Shown here: piece by piece, positions 22,825 to 43,412 of the stretch
Numbering within the stretch: position 1 is the stretch's first letter
Layout of the letters: every line of letters begins with the position of its first letter
Assembly (NCBI RefSeq): GCF_013283835.1
Contig: NZ_CP054052.1
Location: 1,364,001 to 1,428,000, forward strand
From: Poseidonibacter lekithochrous
GTDB taxonomy: Bacteria; Campylobacterota; Campylobacteria; Campylobacterales; Arcobacteraceae
Length of the DNA stretch: 64,000 nucleotides
Reading direction: 5' to 3'
Position numbers and translations under genes: made by a program
The notes under the pieces: model-generated
The model's input: only the letters and a program-made list of their open reading frames with translations
Databases searched by the model: none
Told to the model about the DNA's origin: nothing

Positions 22825-23520
22825 ATGAATCTTTTTACAGATGGCTTCAACGAAGCAATAGACTTACTAATATCAGGAAACGAGAGTGTTTACTCTGCTA
22901 TTAGTACAACAATAACAGTATCATCATGGTCATTATTAATAAGCTTAATAATTGGTCTTCCTTTGGGTTTTGCTCTTGGGTACTACAACTTCTTTGGTAA
23001 AGCGGTTGTTAGAACTATAGTTGATACTTTATTGGCATTGCCTACTGTTGTAATCGGACTTGTGGCATATACTATGTTATCACAAGCTGGGCCATTTGGA
23101 CAATATGATTTATTATTCTCACAACAAGCAATAATCATAGGACAGATTGTATTAGGTCTGCCTATTATTATTGCGCTAACTGCTACACAAGTAGAAGCTG
23201 TTGATAAGAGGTTATATACTTCTTTGAAGGGTTTAGGGGCTCATCCTCATCAGATTTTAGTGGCAACTTTGATTGAAGCTAGATTTGGGATTATGACTGC
23301 TGCTATGACTGCTTATGGGCGAATCATTACTGAAATTGGTATTTCAATGATGGTTGGTGGAAATATCAAATACCATACAAGAACAGTAACAACTGCAATT
23401 GCTTTAGAGACAGGTAAAGGTGAGTTTGTTACAGGTATTGCTCTTGGATTGGTTTTATTTGCTGTTGCATTGATGGTAAATATTGCATTATCACAACTGA
23501 AAAGGAAATGGACACAATGA
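22825..23520 (+). CDS. tupB: Tungstate ABC transporter permease
   Basis: 231 residues, with about five membrane segments and the coupling loop LKGLGAHPHQILVATLIEARFGIMTA. High similarity in pattern to TupB (ALPTVVIGLVAYTMLS; GRIITEIGISMMVGGNI). It makes the membrane channel with TupA and the ATPase. Its stop overlaps the ATPase start as ATGA. Confidence 0.92.
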   Translation: MNLFTDGFNEAIDLLISGNESVYSAISTTITVSSWSLLISLIIGLPLGFALGYYNFFGKAVVRTIVDTLLALPTVVIGLVAYTMLSQAGPFGQYDLLFSQQAIIIGQIVLGLPIIIALTATQVEAVDKRLYTSLKGLGAHPHQILVATLIEARFGIMTAAMTAYGRIITEIGISMMVGGNIKYHTRTVTTAIALETGKGEFVTGIALGLVLFAVALMVNIALSQLKRKWTQ

Positions 23521-24542
23521 TGAATAGTTTATATGAATTAAATAATATAGAACAACATTATGATGGAAGAAAAGTATTAAATATTGAAAATCTTAGATTA
23601 GATGAAAATCAAATCATCGGTTTCTTTGGTCCAAATGGTAGTGGTAAATCAACACTATTTTCATTACTTTCTTTTGTAGATAAACCTAGCTTTGGAGAAA
23701 TCTCTTTTAATGGTTTGTGCAATAAAAAAATGGATTTAGAGACTAGACAAAGTGTAGTGATGGTACCTCAAAATCCTTACCTTTTAAAACGAACAGTTTA
23801 TGAAAATGTATCTTATGGTTTGAAGCTTCGAAAACAAACTGATAATTTAGATGCAAAAGTGTTGGAAGCTTTGGCTTTAGTGGGGCTTGATAGTTCATTT
23901 TCTCAGAGGAAATGGAGTCAGTTATCTGGTGGTGAGGCTCAAAGAGTAGCTCTTGCTGCAAGACTAATACTAAAACCAAAGGTTCTAATCTTAGATGAAC
24001 CAACAAGTGGTGTAGATACAAACTCAGCACAACTAATCAAAGAAGCAATTCTTTGTGCAAAACAAAAATACAATACTACAATCTTTATCTCAAGTCACGA
24101 CCATAACTGGCTAAATCACATCTGTGATAGAAGGGTAGCACTGTTTCAAGGAAACTTGGTTGAGAGTGGAAGTGTAAACTTACTTTTCGCACCTTGGGAG
24201 AAAAATAGTGAGGGAAATCTTGTAAAAGTATTCATGGATGGACAAAGATTGGTTATTCCCAATAGTGAAGAAAAAAAACGTGATTCTGTTGTAATGATAA
24301 ATAGTGATGATATTATTATCTGTAGAGAAAACTGCGAACATATGAAAAACGAAAATACACTAATTGGTGAAGTACAATCTATAAGACAACAACCATCAGG
24401 AAATCATCTACTAATAGAGTTTTCAGTAGGGGGAGTGAGCTTCAGCTCTAGGCTAACAAGAGAAGAGATGCAAAAGCAAACTCTTCTTCCTGGGGATAAG
24501 ATTCATGTGAATATTGATACGTGTGGGGTTTGTTGGATTTAG
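23517..24542 (+). CDS. tupC: Tungstate ABC transporter ATP-binding protein
   Basis: 341 residues. Walker A GPNGSGKST, signature LSGGEAQRVALAARL and Walker B VLILDEPTSGVD are present. The C-terminal about 70 residues (ENTLIGEVQSIRQQPSGNHL to the end) form a TOBE/Mop-like domain that may sense oxyanion, compensating for the domain absent from the ModE-like regulator. ATG 23517 overlapping the tupB stop is chosen since AAGGAAA would be too close to ATG 23508. The gene ends two bases before the convergent toxin gene, and no terminator is obvious. Confidence 0.9.
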   Translation: MMNSLYELNNIEQHYDGRKVLNIENLRLDENQIIGFFGPNGSGKSTLFSLLSFVDKPSFGEISFNGLCNKKMDLETRQSVVMVPQNPYLLKRTVYENVSYGLKLRKQTDNLDAKVLEALALVGLDSSFSQRKWSQLSGGEAQRVALAARLILKPKVLILDEPTSGVDTNSAQLIKEAILCAKQKYNTTIFISSHDHNWLNHICDRRVALFQGNLVESGSVNLLFAPWEKNSEGNLVKVFMDGQRLVIPNSEEKKRDSVVMINSDDIIICRENCEHMKNENTLIGEVQSIRQQPSGNHLLIEFSVGGVSFSSRLTREEMQKQTLLPGDKIHVNIDTCGVCWI

Positions 24543-24544
24543 AT

Positions 24545-24811
24545 TTATTTAAATAATTGACTATGAGTTCCAAGTCTTTGTAAATATAAAACATCATCGA
24601 TAACAGTATATATTAGTAACATATCCCCACCTAGATGAAATTCTCTCATACCTTTATAATCACCAAGTAAGGCATGATCTCTAGATTCACTTGGTAATTC
24701 CTTACCTTGTAGTATGCATGATAAATACTTAATTCTCTTAGTATATTGTTCATCAGTAAGTTTTACTTTTATCTCATCTTTTCTAAAATATTTATGTCTT
24801 TTTAGAAGCAT
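24545..24811 (-). CDS. YafQ/RelE-type mRNA interferase toxin
   Basis: 88 residues. The sequence fits the YafQ subfamily: basic N-terminus, PSESRDHALLGDYKGMREFHLGGDMLLIYT and the terminal GTHSQLF with the catalytic-type His. Toxins of this family cleave mRNA on the ribosome. It starts on the last base of the antitoxin stop, the usual coupled arrangement. Confidence 0.9.
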   Translation of the reverse strand: MLLKRHKYFRKDEIKVKLTDEQYTKRIKYLSCILQGKELPSESRDHALLGDYKGMREFHLGGDMLLIYTVIDDVLYLQRLGTHSQLFK

Positions 24812-25059
24812 TATTTATTTAAATCCTCTAATCTTATATCTTCATAGTTTTCACCAGTTTCTATATCTTTCATAGTTTCTAATGTCATATCATTTGGAAT
24901 TTTAACTTCAAAAGGTAAACCTCTATTAAATACAGATTGAGCTAAAAACATATTAACTGCTTCACTAAGACTTAATCCATAGTGTTTATATATTTCTTTT
25001 GCTTGCTCTTTTAAATTTGTATCTAAATAAACATTTGTTCTTGATTTTTCTACTACCAT
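24811..25059 (-). CDS. DinJ/RelB-type antitoxin
   Basis: 82 residues. It has a ribbon-helix-helix N-terminus (RTNVYLDTNLKEQAKEIYKHYGLSLSEAVNMFLAQ) followed by the DinJ-like GLPFEVKIPND and an acidic tail that would neutralise the toxin. AAGG precedes the ATG. It lies next to a palindrome at 25084-25100, which is the probable autoregulatory operator. Forms the upstream half of the YafQ-type pair. Confidence 0.9.
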   Translation of the reverse strand: MVVEKSRTNVYLDTNLKEQAKEIYKHYGLSLSEAVNMFLAQSVFNRGLPFEVKIPNDMTLETMKDIETGENYEDIRLEDLNK

Positions 25060-25083
25060 AACAAAGCCTTTTTAATTTATTAT

Positions 25084-25100
25084 AACACAAAGATTGTGTT
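25084..25100. promoter_or_regulatory. Operator palindrome of the DinJ/YafQ-type pair
   Basis: AACACAA and TTGTGTT are perfect 7-base arms around AGA, 25 bases upstream of the antitoxin start. Ribbon-helix-helix antitoxins bind such sites to repress themselves. Confidence 0.65.
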
Positions 25101-25154
25101 TTGTAAAGTTACTGTGTTTTTAGTTTCCCTAATATAAAATACTTATTCCTTGTC

Positions 25155-26039
25155 TTACTTTTCAAAATGAAAGTCATCATCTACAATCTCTTTAATCATT
25201 GTTTTTATTTCTTCTTTTGATTCAGATTTTGAAAGAAAATATATCTGTAAGTTTACTTTTTTTAATTTATTATAGTTCATGAAACATATAGTAATAATTT
25301 TTAGTTTTGTATATACATTTAATTTTGAGTTTGATTGAAAATTATCTATAAAAACAAAGATAGTTTCATATTTAAATATTAATATCAATATATAGTAAAA
25401 TGGTAGATAAAATACTGTTAATAAAAATGGTAAAAAGAACTTTTTAACTAAATCAATCAATACAATATTTTGGTAATTATCATGGATACTATCTATTGTT
25501 AAATAAGTAACTAATATTACAAAAAAAGCTAATATAAAACTTATAAAGTTTTCTGCAGATTCAGTATTTTTATCTTTCTCTTGATATTGCATAACTATTT
25601 GAATTAATATTAAAAAAGTGACTATCGTAGTCATGATAAATTCAAAAATGAAATTAAAAGTATAAAGATTAACTATAAATTGATAAACTACAAAAAACTT
25701 TAAATTATCCATTAAGATTGTTTTAACAAAATGCTCTTTGTTTATTAAGTCCTGATGTTTAATTATTAATATAAAAGCGGTAATTATCCATAGTATGGTA
25801 TCTTTGAGATATGAAGTATTCCAATAAAAGAAATTACTTAAGATAATAATTTCAATAAAAATATAAAATAAAAGATATAGTATTATTACTAATATCTCTT
25901 TTTTGAAAAATGATTGAATTAATGTATGTATAGAATCAAATAGACTCTGTCTATCATCAGCTTTATAAAAAATATAAAGTATTACCATTGTAAATAATAA
26001 TATTGATGATAGTTCTCTATTGTTAAATATTTCAGTCAA
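25155..26039 (-). CDS. Polytopic membrane protein of the TIR/SLATT module
   Basis: 294 residues and not a recognised family. About seven hydrophobic segments (near 10-27, 48-72, 80-97, 112-130, 132-150, 167-188 and 202-225), very rich in Ile/Phe/Leu, then a cytoplasmic C-terminal tail of about 60 residues that is Lys/Glu-rich. It is the last gene of the TIR-SLATT operon, 25 bases after the SLATT stop. The start at TTG 26039 is uncertain: only a weak AAGAA precedes it, and the next in-frame ATG is 17 codons further. It may be a partner or membrane accessory of the SLATT effector; function unknown. Confidence 0.65.
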   Translation of the reverse strand: MTEIFNNRELSSILLFTMVILYIFYKADDRQSLFDSIHTLIQSFFKKEILVIILYLLFYIFIEIIILSNFFYWNTSYLKDTILWIITAFILIIKHQDLINKEHFVKTILMDNLKFFVVYQFIVNLYTFNFIFEFIMTTIVTFLILIQIVMQYQEKDKNTESAENFISFILAFFVILVTYLTIDSIHDNYQNIVLIDLVKKFFLPFLLTVFYLPFYYILILIFKYETIFVFIDNFQSNSKLNVYTKLKIITICFMNYNKLKKVNLQIYFLSKSESKEEIKTMIKEIVDDDFHFEK

Positions 26040-26064
26040 TTTCTTATATTATTCCAAGATGATA

Positions 26065-26946
26065 TTAATCAAGTTTTCTAGCAACCCATTGAGTATGTTC
26101 TCTTGAGAATGCATTTTCGCTATTTAATACAAAATCAGAAAGCTCTTTTTCATCTTTTATATATGAAGATTCACCTTTTATAATAGTAATTTCATGAGCA
26201 GTTAAAGTATAAGAGGAAACAAGTTCATTATGTTTTTTTGCTTGTATCCATGTAAATACAGCAGTTGCCATAGTAGCAATTACATCAACAGGAAGACTTA
26301 ATTCAGGGTCTTTAATTCTAAATAATAAAAATCCAATGGCAAGAACATGTAATAAAATTGATACTATAAACCAAAACTTTGCTTTCTTTTTATTATAATT
26401 AGCTTTTTTACTATACCATTTGGATTGATCTAAAATTCTTTGTTTTGTGTATATCTCTAACCTATCTTCAAAACTCAACTTTCTAATTTTTTTCATAGTT
26501 TCAGAAATAGGTTCATTCGGTGTTTCATCATCATGTATTGTTTTAGATAAGTTTTTATTTTGGTCTAAGATACTTTTTAAATCACCCATAAACTCTTTAG
26601 AAACTATTTGAATATCAACATTATCAAGATATGGTTCGGCACGCATACACCATCTCCAAGACCTAGTTTTAACAGATTCTGCTACAGCTCGGCCATTATA
26701 CCATTGATCATCAGGTTTAAAATATTTTAATGCAATTAAAATACCAAGTGTAATAAAAAAGAAACTAGCAGATATGATCGCTCCCATAGCATCTTTAGGA
26801 AAATAAAAAGATACACTAACTGCAATAATTACTAGAAATAAATATGCTCCAAGGCTTAAAAAATAATTTTTTTGAGAACTACTTGACGCATCACTTGCAA
26901 GTTTATGTAATCCAGGAAGTGTCTTACTGTTTAACTCTAAATCCAT
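26065..26946 (-). CDS. DUF4231/SLATT-type membrane effector
   Basis: 293 residues with two pairs of membrane segments: about 28-48 and 54-75, then 190-210 and 217-235. The region after the first pair (WYNGRAVAESVKTRSWRWCMRA, about 82-102) and the C-terminal FSREHTQWVARKL (280-292) are typical of the DUF4231/SLATT superfamily. SLATT proteins were predicted by comparative genomics to be pore-forming effectors in nucleotide-signalled conflict systems. The gene starts on the last base of the TIR gene's stop, so it is translated with it. I infer that a TIR-made nucleotide opens or activates this protein in the membrane. Confidence 0.78.
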   Translation of the reverse strand: MDLELNSKTLPGLHKLASDASSSSQKNYFLSLGAYLFLVIIAVSVSFYFPKDAMGAIISASFFFITLGILIALKYFKPDDQWYNGRAVAESVKTRSWRWCMRAEPYLDNVDIQIVSKEFMGDLKSILDQNKNLSKTIHDDETPNEPISETMKKIRKLSFEDRLEIYTKQRILDQSKWYSKKANYNKKKAKFWFIVSILLHVLAIGFLLFRIKDPELSLPVDVIATMATAVFTWIQAKKHNELVSSYTLTAHEITIIKGESSYIKDEKELSDFVLNSENAFSREHTQWVARKLD

Positions 26947-27356
26947 TATGAATGTGTTCTTATTGCATTAATAATACTGCTTCTATTCCATCCTACTGGT
27001 TCACATATTGATGCATCTCGAACACTTTTGGGCACTCTTTCTTGACCCCAAGGTTTTACACCAATGATAGTTTTACCAAGTCTTTGAGCTTCTCTTATTT
27101 CATAATCAATCCATGCACTATGAGTTGCATACATTCCACCTAAAATAACTACAACATTTGTTGGGTTTATTTGTCTCGTCATTCCACGACTTAAACCAGC
27201 GGATGTTTTATCAGGTAAGGCTTTACTACTAGGAACACTATAGTTACTCCATGAGAAGTTTGGTTCTTCATTAAACCAATTAACTAATCTATCATAGTGA
27301 GCATTATATCCCCAAGCATGACTAATGAATATTGCTCTATTTTTAAGGTTTGGCAT
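26946..27356 (-). CDS. MTH538/ThsB-like TIR domain protein
   Basis: 136 residues, a single TIR-like domain (DUF1863 family). Motifs are FISHAW (10-15), an SVPSSKALP loop (40-48), VVVILGGMY (68-76) and WIDYEIREAQRLGKTIIGVKPWG with E86 at the catalytic-type position. ThsB of the Thoeris phage-defence system belongs to this family and makes a cyclic-ADPR-type signal from NAD+ on infection. No ThsA partner is present; a SLATT membrane protein takes that place. AAGGAAA precedes the ATG. It heads a three-gene operon. Confidence 0.85.
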   Translation of the reverse strand: MPNLKNRAIFISHAWGYNAHYDRLVNWFNEEPNFSWSNYSVPSSKALPDKTSAGLSRGMTRQINPTNVVVILGGMYATHSAWIDYEIREAQRLGKTIIGVKPWGQERVPKSVRDASICEPVGWNRSSIINAIRTHS

Positions 27357-27597
27357 TTAATTTCCTTTTAAATTTAATTAATAATATTATATTACTTATC
27401 AACTTAATATGTAAAATAATATTATTTTATTGATGGTTATATGATAACTTTAACTTATATTTAAATATAAGTTGATACTAATAAGAAATAACACCTTAAA
27501 ATTACACCACAGGGGTTGAATTCCCATTTTTAGTAATAGAAAATAGAAAAGTATTTTTTTATATAGCAGTATTTGTAGGGACTGATAAGTTTATAAC

Positions 27598-27885
27598 TTA
27601 ATCAAACCTACTATCTAAAAGCTTATAAATCTTGTCGTTTTCTCTTTTTCCCACAGCTAAAACAATAACAAATATTTCTTCATCTTTTACTTGGTATGCT
27701 AGTCTAAATCCTGCATTTCTTAGTTTGATTTTATATACATCTTCAAAACCTGATAGTTTGTCTTTTTGAACTTTTGGATTTTCTAGTCTTTCTTTTAGTT
27801 TCTTTTTGAATTGTTCTTTGATTTTGGAATCAATTTTATCCCATTCTTTTAGGGCTTTTTTATGAAATTGTAGTTTATAAGTCAT
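27598..27885 (-). CDS. relE: RelE-family toxin
   Basis: 95 residues. The RelE pattern is clear: FHKKALKEWDKIDSKIKEQF, then LSGFEDVYKIKLRNAGFRLAYQV and VIVLAVGKREND. RelE toxins cleave mRNA in the ribosomal A site. It overlaps the antitoxin gene by 11 bases. It is the second toxin-antitoxin pair flanking the TIR/SLATT genes. Confidence 0.9.
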   Translation of the reverse strand: MTYKLQFHKKALKEWDKIDSKIKEQFKKKLKERLENPKVQKDKLSGFEDVYKIKLRNAGFRLAYQVKDEEIFVIVLAVGKRENDKIYKLLDSRFD

Positions 27886-28126
27886 CTAGATTTACTTCTA
27901 CAAGTTCATCTGTATCTTCAATTCTTTCTTTTACTTTATTTGCAAGCATATAGTCATCTACTATTTCCATTAACTTTTCGTATGTTTGTGCTGGTACTAG
28001 GTAGGCACTAGCTTTGTTATGGTTTAGTATTGCTACTGCTTCATCTCCTGCTTCTTCTATTATAGAAGAGGGTGATTTTTTTAGTTCACTTATACTTGCT
28101 GAATAGTTTGATAAAATAGCATTCAT
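27875..28126 (-). CDS. Phd/YefM-type antitoxin
   Basis: 83 residues. It has the Phd/YefM/StbD-like N-terminus (YSASISELKKSPSSIIEEAGDEAVAILNHNKASAYLVP) and a C-terminal acidic arm (ERIEDTDELVEVNLDDL). It pairs with the RelE toxin downstream. The upstream region is AT-rich, without an operator palindrome I could fix. Confidence 0.88.
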   Translation of the reverse strand: MNAILSNYSASISELKKSPSSIIEEAGDEAVAILNHNKASAYLVPAQTYEKLMEIVDDYMLANKVKERIEDTDELVEVNLDDL

Positions 28127-28307
28127 TTTAAAACCTTTTTTAGTACTTTATTTAGTATATTATATGATATTTATTTTATCGTGTCAAGAATATAATTAAA
28201 ACTCAAAAAACAATTTTTCAAGAAAGATTTTAGTCTACGCCTTTAGCTGATAAAATTCAATCCTTGATTGGGCTAGATTATCGAAAGTAAAATAAATAAA
28301 AATTAAT

Positions 28308-28331
28308 AATTAGGTATACTGTCCCCTAATT
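28308..28331. repeat. Inverted repeat at the edge of the accessory island
   Basis: AATTAGG and CCTAATT form perfect 7-base arms around a 10-base spacer between the antitoxin gene and the next forward gene. It could be an operator or hairpin, or an island boundary element; nothing distinguishes these. Confidence 0.3.
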
Positions 28332-28393: not shown

Positions 28394-29062
28394 ATGGAAA
28401 CAATTTATTCAAAAAAAAATCATCTAGAAATTAACACTAGTGTTTTATTTAAATCTTCTGAATTTAAAGAGAGTGTAATGAAGGAAACTGCAGAAAAGTT
28501 TGTACTTATATCTTGTACTACAAGATATATGCCAGAGATAGTTCACAAAGGAGATTCACTTAATATAATTTCCTTTTTTGACAAAATGAAAGAATTATAC
28601 TTCAGCGATAATTCTATTAAAAATATAACTAATATGTCATCAACTTCGTGTTCTATCGACACAGAAACTCAAGTTTCATTTTTAACTCCTCTATATCACA
28701 TGGGTTACTTTTTACTTTTAGCAAATATTTCAAATAATAAAGATTTAAAAAATAAACTTAAAAACAGAGCTTCAAGCTTTTTAAGAACTTACTATAAATT
28801 AGAAGAATATAAAGCTATTATTGCTGATAAAGATGATAAAAAAGTAAATATTAAATCTTTAACTTTTACAGAGCTAATAGCAGAATGGATGTCTTTTATT
28901 AATTCATTTCTAAGTGATTTTTCTGTTTATTTAATCAAATCTAAACAAAAAATAACTTTGCAAAATAAAGATGAAGTAGTGTTAAATTTTAAAAATTTAA
29001 TGAAAGATATTAAGCCAAAACCTCTTAATATTAGTGAAGAGATTTTGACTTACTTAAAATAA
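28394..29062 (+). CDS. Hypothetical cytoplasmic protein
   Basis: 222 residues with no signal or membrane segment. Not recognised. The middle contains a hydrophobic helix (SFLTPLYHMGYFLLLANI, about 95-112), and the rest is Lys/Ser-rich and probably helical. It is followed 63 bases later by a lipoprotein esterase gene in the same direction and lies next to the toxin-antitoxin/TIR island, so it could be part of the accessory region. The start is the first ATG, after a weak AAGGAA. Confidence 0.6.
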   Translation: METIYSKKNHLEINTSVLFKSSEFKESVMKETAEKFVLISCTTRYMPEIVHKGDSLNIISFFDKMKELYFSDNSIKNITNMSSTSCSIDTETQVSFLTPLYHMGYFLLLANISNNKDLKNKLKNRASSFLRTYYKLEEYKAIIADKDDKKVNIKSLTFTELIAEWMSFINSFLSDFSVYLIKSKQKITLQNKDEVVLNFKNLMKDIKPKPLNISEEILTYLK

Positions 29063-42164: not shown

Positions 42165-43412
42165 ATGCAAACACTTGAACAATTAAACAATGATGAATTA
42201 AAAGGCATCAAACAACTTACTATTTCAGAAGATTTATGTGAATTTCCTCAAAAAATATTTGAACTAGCAGATAGTTTGGAAATGTTAGATTTAAGTAATA
42301 ATAAGCTTACACATATACCAAATCTAGAAAAACTTACTAATCTGAAAATTGCTTTTTTTTCATACAATCTTTTTACAGAACTACCAAATGCTTTTAAAAA
42401 CTGTAAAAATTTATATATGTTGGGACTTAAAGGTAATCAAATTGAAGTTATTAAAGAGGATATTTTACCTCATAGTATTTCATGGCTTATTTTAACTGAT
42501 AATAAAATCAAAACACTTCCAAACTCTATTGGTGATTTAACTAAACTTCAAAAATTTCCATTAGCAGGAAACCTTTTAACAACTTTACCTAATAGTATGC
42601 AAAACTGTAAAAACTTAGAGTTATTAAGATTATCAGCTAATAATTTAAAAGAGATTCCTTCTTGGCTTCTTAATCTTCCAAAGCTTTCATGGTTGGCATT
42701 TTCAGGTAATGATTGTTCTGTTCAACCACAAGTTGATTTAGAAAAAGCTTCTTTAGAAAAACTACAGATTCAAGAGCAATTAGGTGAGGGCGCTTCCGGT
42801 ATGATATATAAAGCCTTTTGCTCAACACAAAAAAAAGATGTAGCTCTTAAACTTTTTAAAGGGGCAATTACTAGCGATGGTTATGCTGTTGATGAAATGA
42901 ATACATATATGTCAATAGGAAAACACAATAATCTTATTAATGTTATTGCAAAAATTGATGAGGATGAAAAACTAGGGCTTTTACTTGATCTTATTCCTAA
43001 AAGTTATGAAAACTTAGGTTTCCCACCAAACTTTGATACTTGTACTAGAGATACTTTTGCTAATAACCATACAATGACAAGTAAAAGTATTTATGAAGTA
43101 GTAAAACATATTCAATCAGCTGCAATTCATTTACATGAAAAAAATCTTATGCATGGAGATTTATATGCTCACAATATTTTAATAAATGAAGATAATCACT
43201 GTTATTTAGGTGACTTTGGGGCAAGTAGTTTTTATGATAATAAAGCTTATGAAAAAATTGAAGTTCGTGCTTTTGGATGTTTAATTGATGATTTACTTAA
43301 CATTTGTTCTGATAAAGAGAATACTTGTTTTGAGACTTTGCGAACTGTTTCACAAACTTGTATGAATGAAGATGTAAATTCAAGACCTTTATTTAATGAG
43401 ATTAATTTTTAA
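42165..43412 (+). CDS. Leucine-rich-repeat protein kinase
   Basis: 415 residues, cytoplasmic. Leucine-rich repeats fill about 14-190 (LEMLDLSNNKLTHIP, LYMLGLKGNQIEVI, LELLRLSANNLKEIP). A eukaryotic-like kinase domain follows: glycine loop GEGASG (207-212), K229 in VALKLF, E244, HGD with D332 and N337, and DFG (350-352). The C-lobe is short but ends with NSRPLFNEI, similar to the kinase terminal helix. All catalytic residues appear present. It is monocistronic and has no phosphatase partner nearby. LRR-kinase fusions are rare in this phylum to my knowledge. Confidence 0.85.
   Translation: MQTLEQLNNDELKGIKQLTISEDLCEFPQKIFELADSLEMLDLSNNKLTHIPNLEKLTNLKIAFFSYNLFTELPNAFKNCKNLYMLGLKGNQIEVIKEDILPHSISWLILTDNKIKTLPNSIGDLTKLQKFPLAGNLLTTLPNSMQNCKNLELLRLSANNLKEIPSWLLNLPKLSWLAFSGNDCSVQPQVDLEKASLEKLQIQEQLGEGASGMIYKAFCSTQKKDVALKLFKGAITSDGYAVDEMNTYMSIGKHNNLINVIAKIDEDEKLGLLLDLIPKSYENLGFPPNFDTCTRDTFANNHTMTSKSIYEVVKHIQSAAIHLHEKNLMHGDLYAHNILINEDNHCYLGDFGASSFYDNKAYEKIEVRAFGCLIDDLLNICSDKENTCFETLRTVSQTCMNEDVNSRPLFNEINF

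Follow-up and report, generated by a model that had tools for sequence, protein, structure and literature searches.

The DNA analysed here, a stretch of 64,000 nucleotides that we call the window, comes from Poseidonibacter lekithochrous, whose 3.57-Mb genome is assembled as one contig. The interval under study runs from a Phd-type to a YafQ-type gene, and gene calls recover in it every gene named in the initial annotation, at its coordinates and on the minus strand. At one end lie a Phd/YefM-type antitoxin (27875-28126; Pfam PhdYeFM_antitox, 6.7e-13) and a ParE/RelE-type toxin (27598-27885; Pfam ParE_toxin, 2.8e-15), and at the other a RelB/DinJ antitoxin (24811-25059; Pfam RelB, 1.5e-12) and a YafQ-type toxin (24545-24811; Pfam YafQ_toxin, 3.5e-22). 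Pfam thus bears out the earlier description of two flanking toxin-antitoxin (TA) pairs, one YafQ-type and one RelE-type. The three genes between them encode a ThsB-like TIR protein of 136 aa (26946-27356, Pfam ThsB_TIR and PADLOC ThsB), predicted to act as sensor and NAD+-processing signal synthase; a membrane protein of 293 aa with a SLATT_3 and a SLATT_1 domain in Pfam (DUF4231; 26065-26946), the predicted effector; and a third membrane protein of 294 aa with a TTG start and five hydrophobic segments by hydropathy (25155-26039). The TIR and SLATT genes have one base in common and the third membrane gene begins 25 bases past SLATT, so both spacings and the coordinates first assigned to this same-strand trio are correct.

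The interval occupies a variable island (24544-28330) between tupC (23508-24542) and a conserved gene at 28394-29062. Compared with genus relatives, conserved DNA stops near 24541-24569 and restarts near 28331. In one genus relative the slot is taken by a TA pair and a PtuA-like ATPase; in another, AbiJ_NTD4 and trypsin-like proteins are encoded there together with an integrase and a defence-candidate helicase. Among further relatives, one carries a rhodanese gene at this place and one has as its cargo just one gene, roughly 0.7 kb long. Because the cargo differs from relative to relative, we read the slot as a defence hotspot. SLATT itself is found in one of the ten genus members searched, P. 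lekithochrous, and is absent from the other nine.

Upstream of the TIR gene lie several candidate regulatory sites. A promoter-like site on the minus strand, TTTACA-18-TATAAT (27386-27415), matches at 11 of 12 positions and precedes the TIR start by some 30 bases; similar sites precede the RelB/DinJ antitoxin (25079-25107, 11 of 12) and the Phd/YefM-type antitoxin (28159-28187, 12 of 12), and such sites occur over the region at chance level (30 found, 29.5 expected from shuffles). Just upstream of the TIR gene is also a perfect 22-bp palindrome, AACTTATATTTAAATATAAGTT (27452-27473), the longest in the window, where palindromes with arms of at least 11 bases are expected 0.1 times per 64 kb. 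An 18-bp palindrome (27412-27429) lies over the -35 element of the TIR promoter-like site. These palindromes are a possible operator. Elsewhere in the window (42165-43412), a protein of 415 aa is a fusion of leucine-rich repeats and a eukaryotic-like protein kinase domain.

The identification of the TIR protein as ThsB-type is well founded. Residues 10-106 match Pfam ThsB_TIR (PF08937) with an E-value of 5.7e-16 and 59.2 bits, against a cut-off of 21.2, and PADLOC assigns the protein to ThsB (E 1.4e-11). Its AlphaFold model (pLDDT 88.9) has the TIR fold and finds EcThsB (8wcf) as the top match in the PDB, with E 1.5e-4 and probability 1.00; nucleotide N-glycosidases of related fold are also among the matches. 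The catalytic glutamate, which the initial annotation had placed at residue 86, is indeed E86 and is invariant across 27 aligned sequences. The structure comparison proposed there returned the TIR fold, the closest match expected and the active-site glutamate, as judged on the model, the EcThsB match and the conservation of E86. The enzyme probably makes a signal from NAD+.

The partner protein is a SLATT protein as claimed, and a double one: SLATT_3 spans residues 11-162 (1.1e-32) and SLATT_1 residues 166-287 (1.9e-35), with DUF4231 matched in addition. Hydropathy places hydrophobic segments at residues 29-47, 55-73 and 191-209, and the predicted model is all-helical (pLDDT 84.9); profile matches and hydrophobic transmembrane helices thus agree in placing it in the SLATT family. 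Searches of the PDB by sequence and by fold give no significant match (best E 0.16), and weak matches to alpha-pore-forming toxins (E 0.16 and above) were set aside. PADLOC has no label for the protein, and no SLOG, Macro, SAVED or other recognisable signal-binding domain is found in it. Since it has neither such a domain nor a PDB match, the proposal that it is activated by the TIR product is built on the linkage of the two genes and on a published prediction. In that prediction, SLATT proteins are effectors of membrane permeability regulated by ADPr derivatives (PMC9503650; also PMC7159879), and formation of a pore upon activation is likewise predicted.

TIR and SLATT genes recur together far beyond this genus. 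Among 21 relatives of the TIR protein drawn from bacterial genomes of many phyla, SLATT is adjacent in 12. Five of these carry a double SLATT (L006, L009, L010, L011 and L015), which overlaps the TIR gene by 4 bases or lies within 2 bases of it, and seven a single SLATT (L012, L017, L018, L020, L022, L024 and L025). The TIR gene stands beside a caspase, the layout of type IV Thoeris, in three (L019, called by profile; L021 and L026, called by near-identical sequence), near a TPR-S gene with no SLATT nearby in three more (L007, L013 and L014), and in a TGT-like cluster in one (L016); two loci end at a contig edge (L008 and L023). A second set of 17 TIR relatives from viral contigs has SLATT in 12, with two of the 17 cut by contig ends. 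The reverse search, seeded with SLATT, finds a ThsB-type TIR nearby in 10 of the 11 loci inspected. In nine of them it lies at most 350 bases away (L027, L028, L030, L031, L117, L074, L075, L076 and L077); in L029, a fragment, it lies 2.35 kb away, beyond two IS elements, and in L078 no TIR was detected nearby.

Of the plasmid records, 81 have SLATT and 99 have TIR, and the two counts match in Citrobacter, Klebsiella, Salmonella, Enterobacter, Escherichia and Vibrio. The genes can run in the same direction and overlap, the arrangement found in P. lekithochrous, or they can be convergent, which is how they lie in enterobacteria and Vibrio. Convergent pairs with a double SLATT are seen on enterobacterial plasmids, on plasmids of 5.2 kb and within an integrative element of E. 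coli (L122, 3308-5291; L030, 2927-4221; L117, 4318-5609). An apparent SLATT-TIR fusion in Halorubrum was rejected, its N-terminal part not being SLATT. The two genes are truly linked: their linkage is conserved from phylum to phylum and extends to phages, to plasmids and to an integrative element.

The same TIR family also changes partner. Two Campylobacterota genomes (G047 and G305), Clostridia and a plasmid of Thiolapillus have it together with caspases, and the P. lekithochrous TIR is 46% and 44% identical to two caspase-linked TIRs (L019 and L026). A tree of 44 TIRs requires 13 changes of partner label and has caspase in two separate places. The P. lekithochrous TIR falls in a strongly supported clade of mostly double-SLATT and TPR-S loci, in a tree with several long branches in which fine placement is uncertain. 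A swap of caspase and SLATT beside one TIR family is what a diffusible signal predicts. It is also the pattern of Thoeris, which leads us to read the locus as a two-gene Thoeris-like module.

Type I Thoeris consists of ThsB and a SIR2-SLOG ThsA that respond through 3'cADPR, and in type II the signal is His-ADPR and the effector a TM-Macro ThsA. The P. lekithochrous TIR resembles that of type I as a ThsB-type protein with its catalytic glutamate, and no protein of the interval matches SIR2 or SLOG. With type II the locus shares a TIR signal synthase and a membrane effector, but SLATT takes the place of the Macro domain, for which no protein of the interval has a match. The TM-macro effector of type II acts by membrane perturbation, and type IV pairs a TIR with a caspase-like protease through the signal N7-cADPR; in both types, a TIR of this kind passes its signal to an effector that has a gene of its own (PMC12847820). 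The present locus has the same TIR family as type IV and the same two-gene operon, but SLATT where type IV has a caspase, which Pfam does not find in the interval. Like Thoeris in general, it joins a TIR gene and a distinct effector gene in one operon, by a 1-base overlap and a linkage kept elsewhere.

We therefore consider it likely that the locus is a two-gene, Thoeris-like, abortive-infection module of TIR and SLATT, with the third membrane gene as a passenger and the TA pairs as separate cargo. Under this model the ThsB-type TIR would sense phage infection and, by means of E86, turn NAD+ into a signal derived from ADP-ribose. This would activate the co-expressed SLATT_3-SLATT_1 membrane protein, whose hydrophobic helices may permeabilise or depolarise the inner membrane, and the infected cell would halt before phage release, which would give protection. 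The SLATT protein probably responds to the TIR-made signal. That the TIR product triggers SLATT in place of ThsA, as the initial annotation proposed, is a reasonable model given the TIR fold, the glutamate and the conserved linkage. In the literature searched we found no phage, NAD+ or membrane assay of a TIR-SLATT pair and no functional test of any SLATT protein.

The catalytic glutamate would also suit a TIR that depletes NAD+ directly, with SLATT as its anchor or regulator and not a signal-gated pore, and TIR NADases that work independently of an effector do exist, SpbK being a NADase (PMC12847820). Two observations make this reading improbable: the relatives of the TIR pair with effectors as unrelated as caspase and SLATT, an arrangement more in keeping with a diffusible signal than with a fixed complex, and the TIRs of type IV Thoeris make N7-cADPR (PMC12847820).

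The role of the third membrane gene in the TIR-SLATT module is judged here from its relatives. Searches of Pfam, NCBIfam, PADLOC and PHROGs assign the protein to no family, and the group of its relatives occurs in two of 397 genomes of the class, P. lekithochrous itself and one other (G127, 434 aa). Other relatives, of 427-440 aa, are on one Salmonella plasmid and two Arcobacter plasmids. These rare relatives are about 140 residues longer than the 294-aa copy, which matches them over the N-terminal membrane part but is without their C-terminal domain; by this alignment the copy appears to be shortened at its C-terminus and to belong to a rare family of membrane proteins. The neighbours of the relatives are AbiEii with NERD/SEC-C, or an AAA_13 ATPase with DUF3800, or an integrase. 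Class-wide searches with a single sequence and with a profile, and searches of plasmids, phages and viral contigs, place none of the relatives beside TIR or SLATT, and none of the other TIR-SLATT loci examined has the third gene. A conserved TIR-SLATT-membrane trio was rejected on these searches. The initial annotation had taken the three genes for one system: its expectation of co-occurrence holds for TIR and SLATT, in the proportions given above, and fails for the third gene, whose relatives never adjoin either of them in the genomes, plasmids, phages and viral contigs searched. We conclude that the gene is probably a passenger, co-transcribed or incidental.

Its position on the same strand, 25 bases after SLATT, together with an intact frame over five hydrophobic segments and an N-terminus that aligns to the relatives, could also be those of a working third part, such as a regulator, a second pore subunit or an immunity-like brake, in a Campylobacterota-specific TIR-SLATT system. 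Such a role is unlikely for a gene missing from the other TIR-SLATT loci examined, shortened relative to a family of 427-440 aa that the searches never place beside TIR or SLATT, and belonging to a family found in so few genomes of the class, one of them P. lekithochrous. In its narrower form, as a genuine third component that modulates SLATT in a Thoeris variant of three genes peculiar to the present lineage, we hold it to be quite unlikely.

The TA pairs seem to be cargo in their own right, outside the TIR-SLATT module. They are placed tightly at the two ends of a single inserted segment, and in another member of the genus this slot contains a PtuA-like ATPase and, with it, a TA pair, as would be expected if the whole stretch from Phd to YafQ were one coordinated conflict island in which the pairs guard or stabilise TIR-SLATT. 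TA pairs were not regular neighbours of the other TIR-SLATT loci inspected and each pair here has a promoter-like site of its own, which makes this very unlikely; a role of the pairs in the system is not supported. Least probable of all is a decayed or non-functional locus, a thought raised by the truncated look of the third gene and by the nine genus members without SLATT, for TIR and SLATT are full length with their invariant residues intact, and a promoter-like site and palindromes stand upstream of TIR.

The two-gene TIR-SLATT module is not a new system, as the initial annotation had suggested it might be, since a 2022 publication (PMC9503650) already describes a conserved neighbourhood of TIR and SLATT, in firmicute phages. 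There too a TIR gene stands next to a SLATT 2TM gene, whose product is predicted to be a membrane effector regulated by an ADPr derivative, and the adjacency described there is the one that recurs in both of our TIR-seeded sets and in the SLATT-seeded loci. In our own searches, firmicute-phage loci of that type have a single SLATT upstream of TIR, whereas P. lekithochrous has a double SLATT downstream of it, on a Campylobacterota chromosome. A systematic survey of TIR signalling systems is also available as a 2025 preprint (cited in PMC13232231), which to judge by its title likely covers TIR genes with diverse effectors, and a 2026 preprint that cites the 2025 TIR-signalling preprint gives the name of a type VI Thoeris. 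What is new here is a Campylobacterota member of the TIR-SLATT group with a double SLATT downstream of the TIR gene.

SLATT is widely predicted to be a bacterial immune effector. The exchange of SLATT and caspase within one TIR family means that TIR-SLATT pairs make it possible to test directly whether an ADP-ribose signal opens SLATT, and which one. On one enterobacterial plasmid, TIR and double-SLATT genes lie next to sul1, qacEdelta1 and qnrB6. The presence of TIR-SLATT on enterobacterial antibiotic-resistance plasmids and on an integrative element may affect phage susceptibility there.

Further genes keep company with TIRs of this family. TPR-S (TRAFs-binding) proteins recur near them, sometimes where SLATT is missing (L007, L013, L014, L016 and L122), and TPR-S may be a sensor partner. 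The three TIR relatives that have TPR-S and no SLATT indicate that some loci may require an additional sensor; the P. lekithochrous locus has no such gene. On a Synechococcus plasmid (L120, 3001-3929), a related TIR gene overlaps the gene of an octameric membrane protein of the 8xMP family, a possible further type of effector. Another related TIR (L016, 252-4639) is clustered with a TGT-family gene, a gene that is QueC-like by eye, a second TIR and TPR-S, which suggests a nucleic-acid-modification defence locus.
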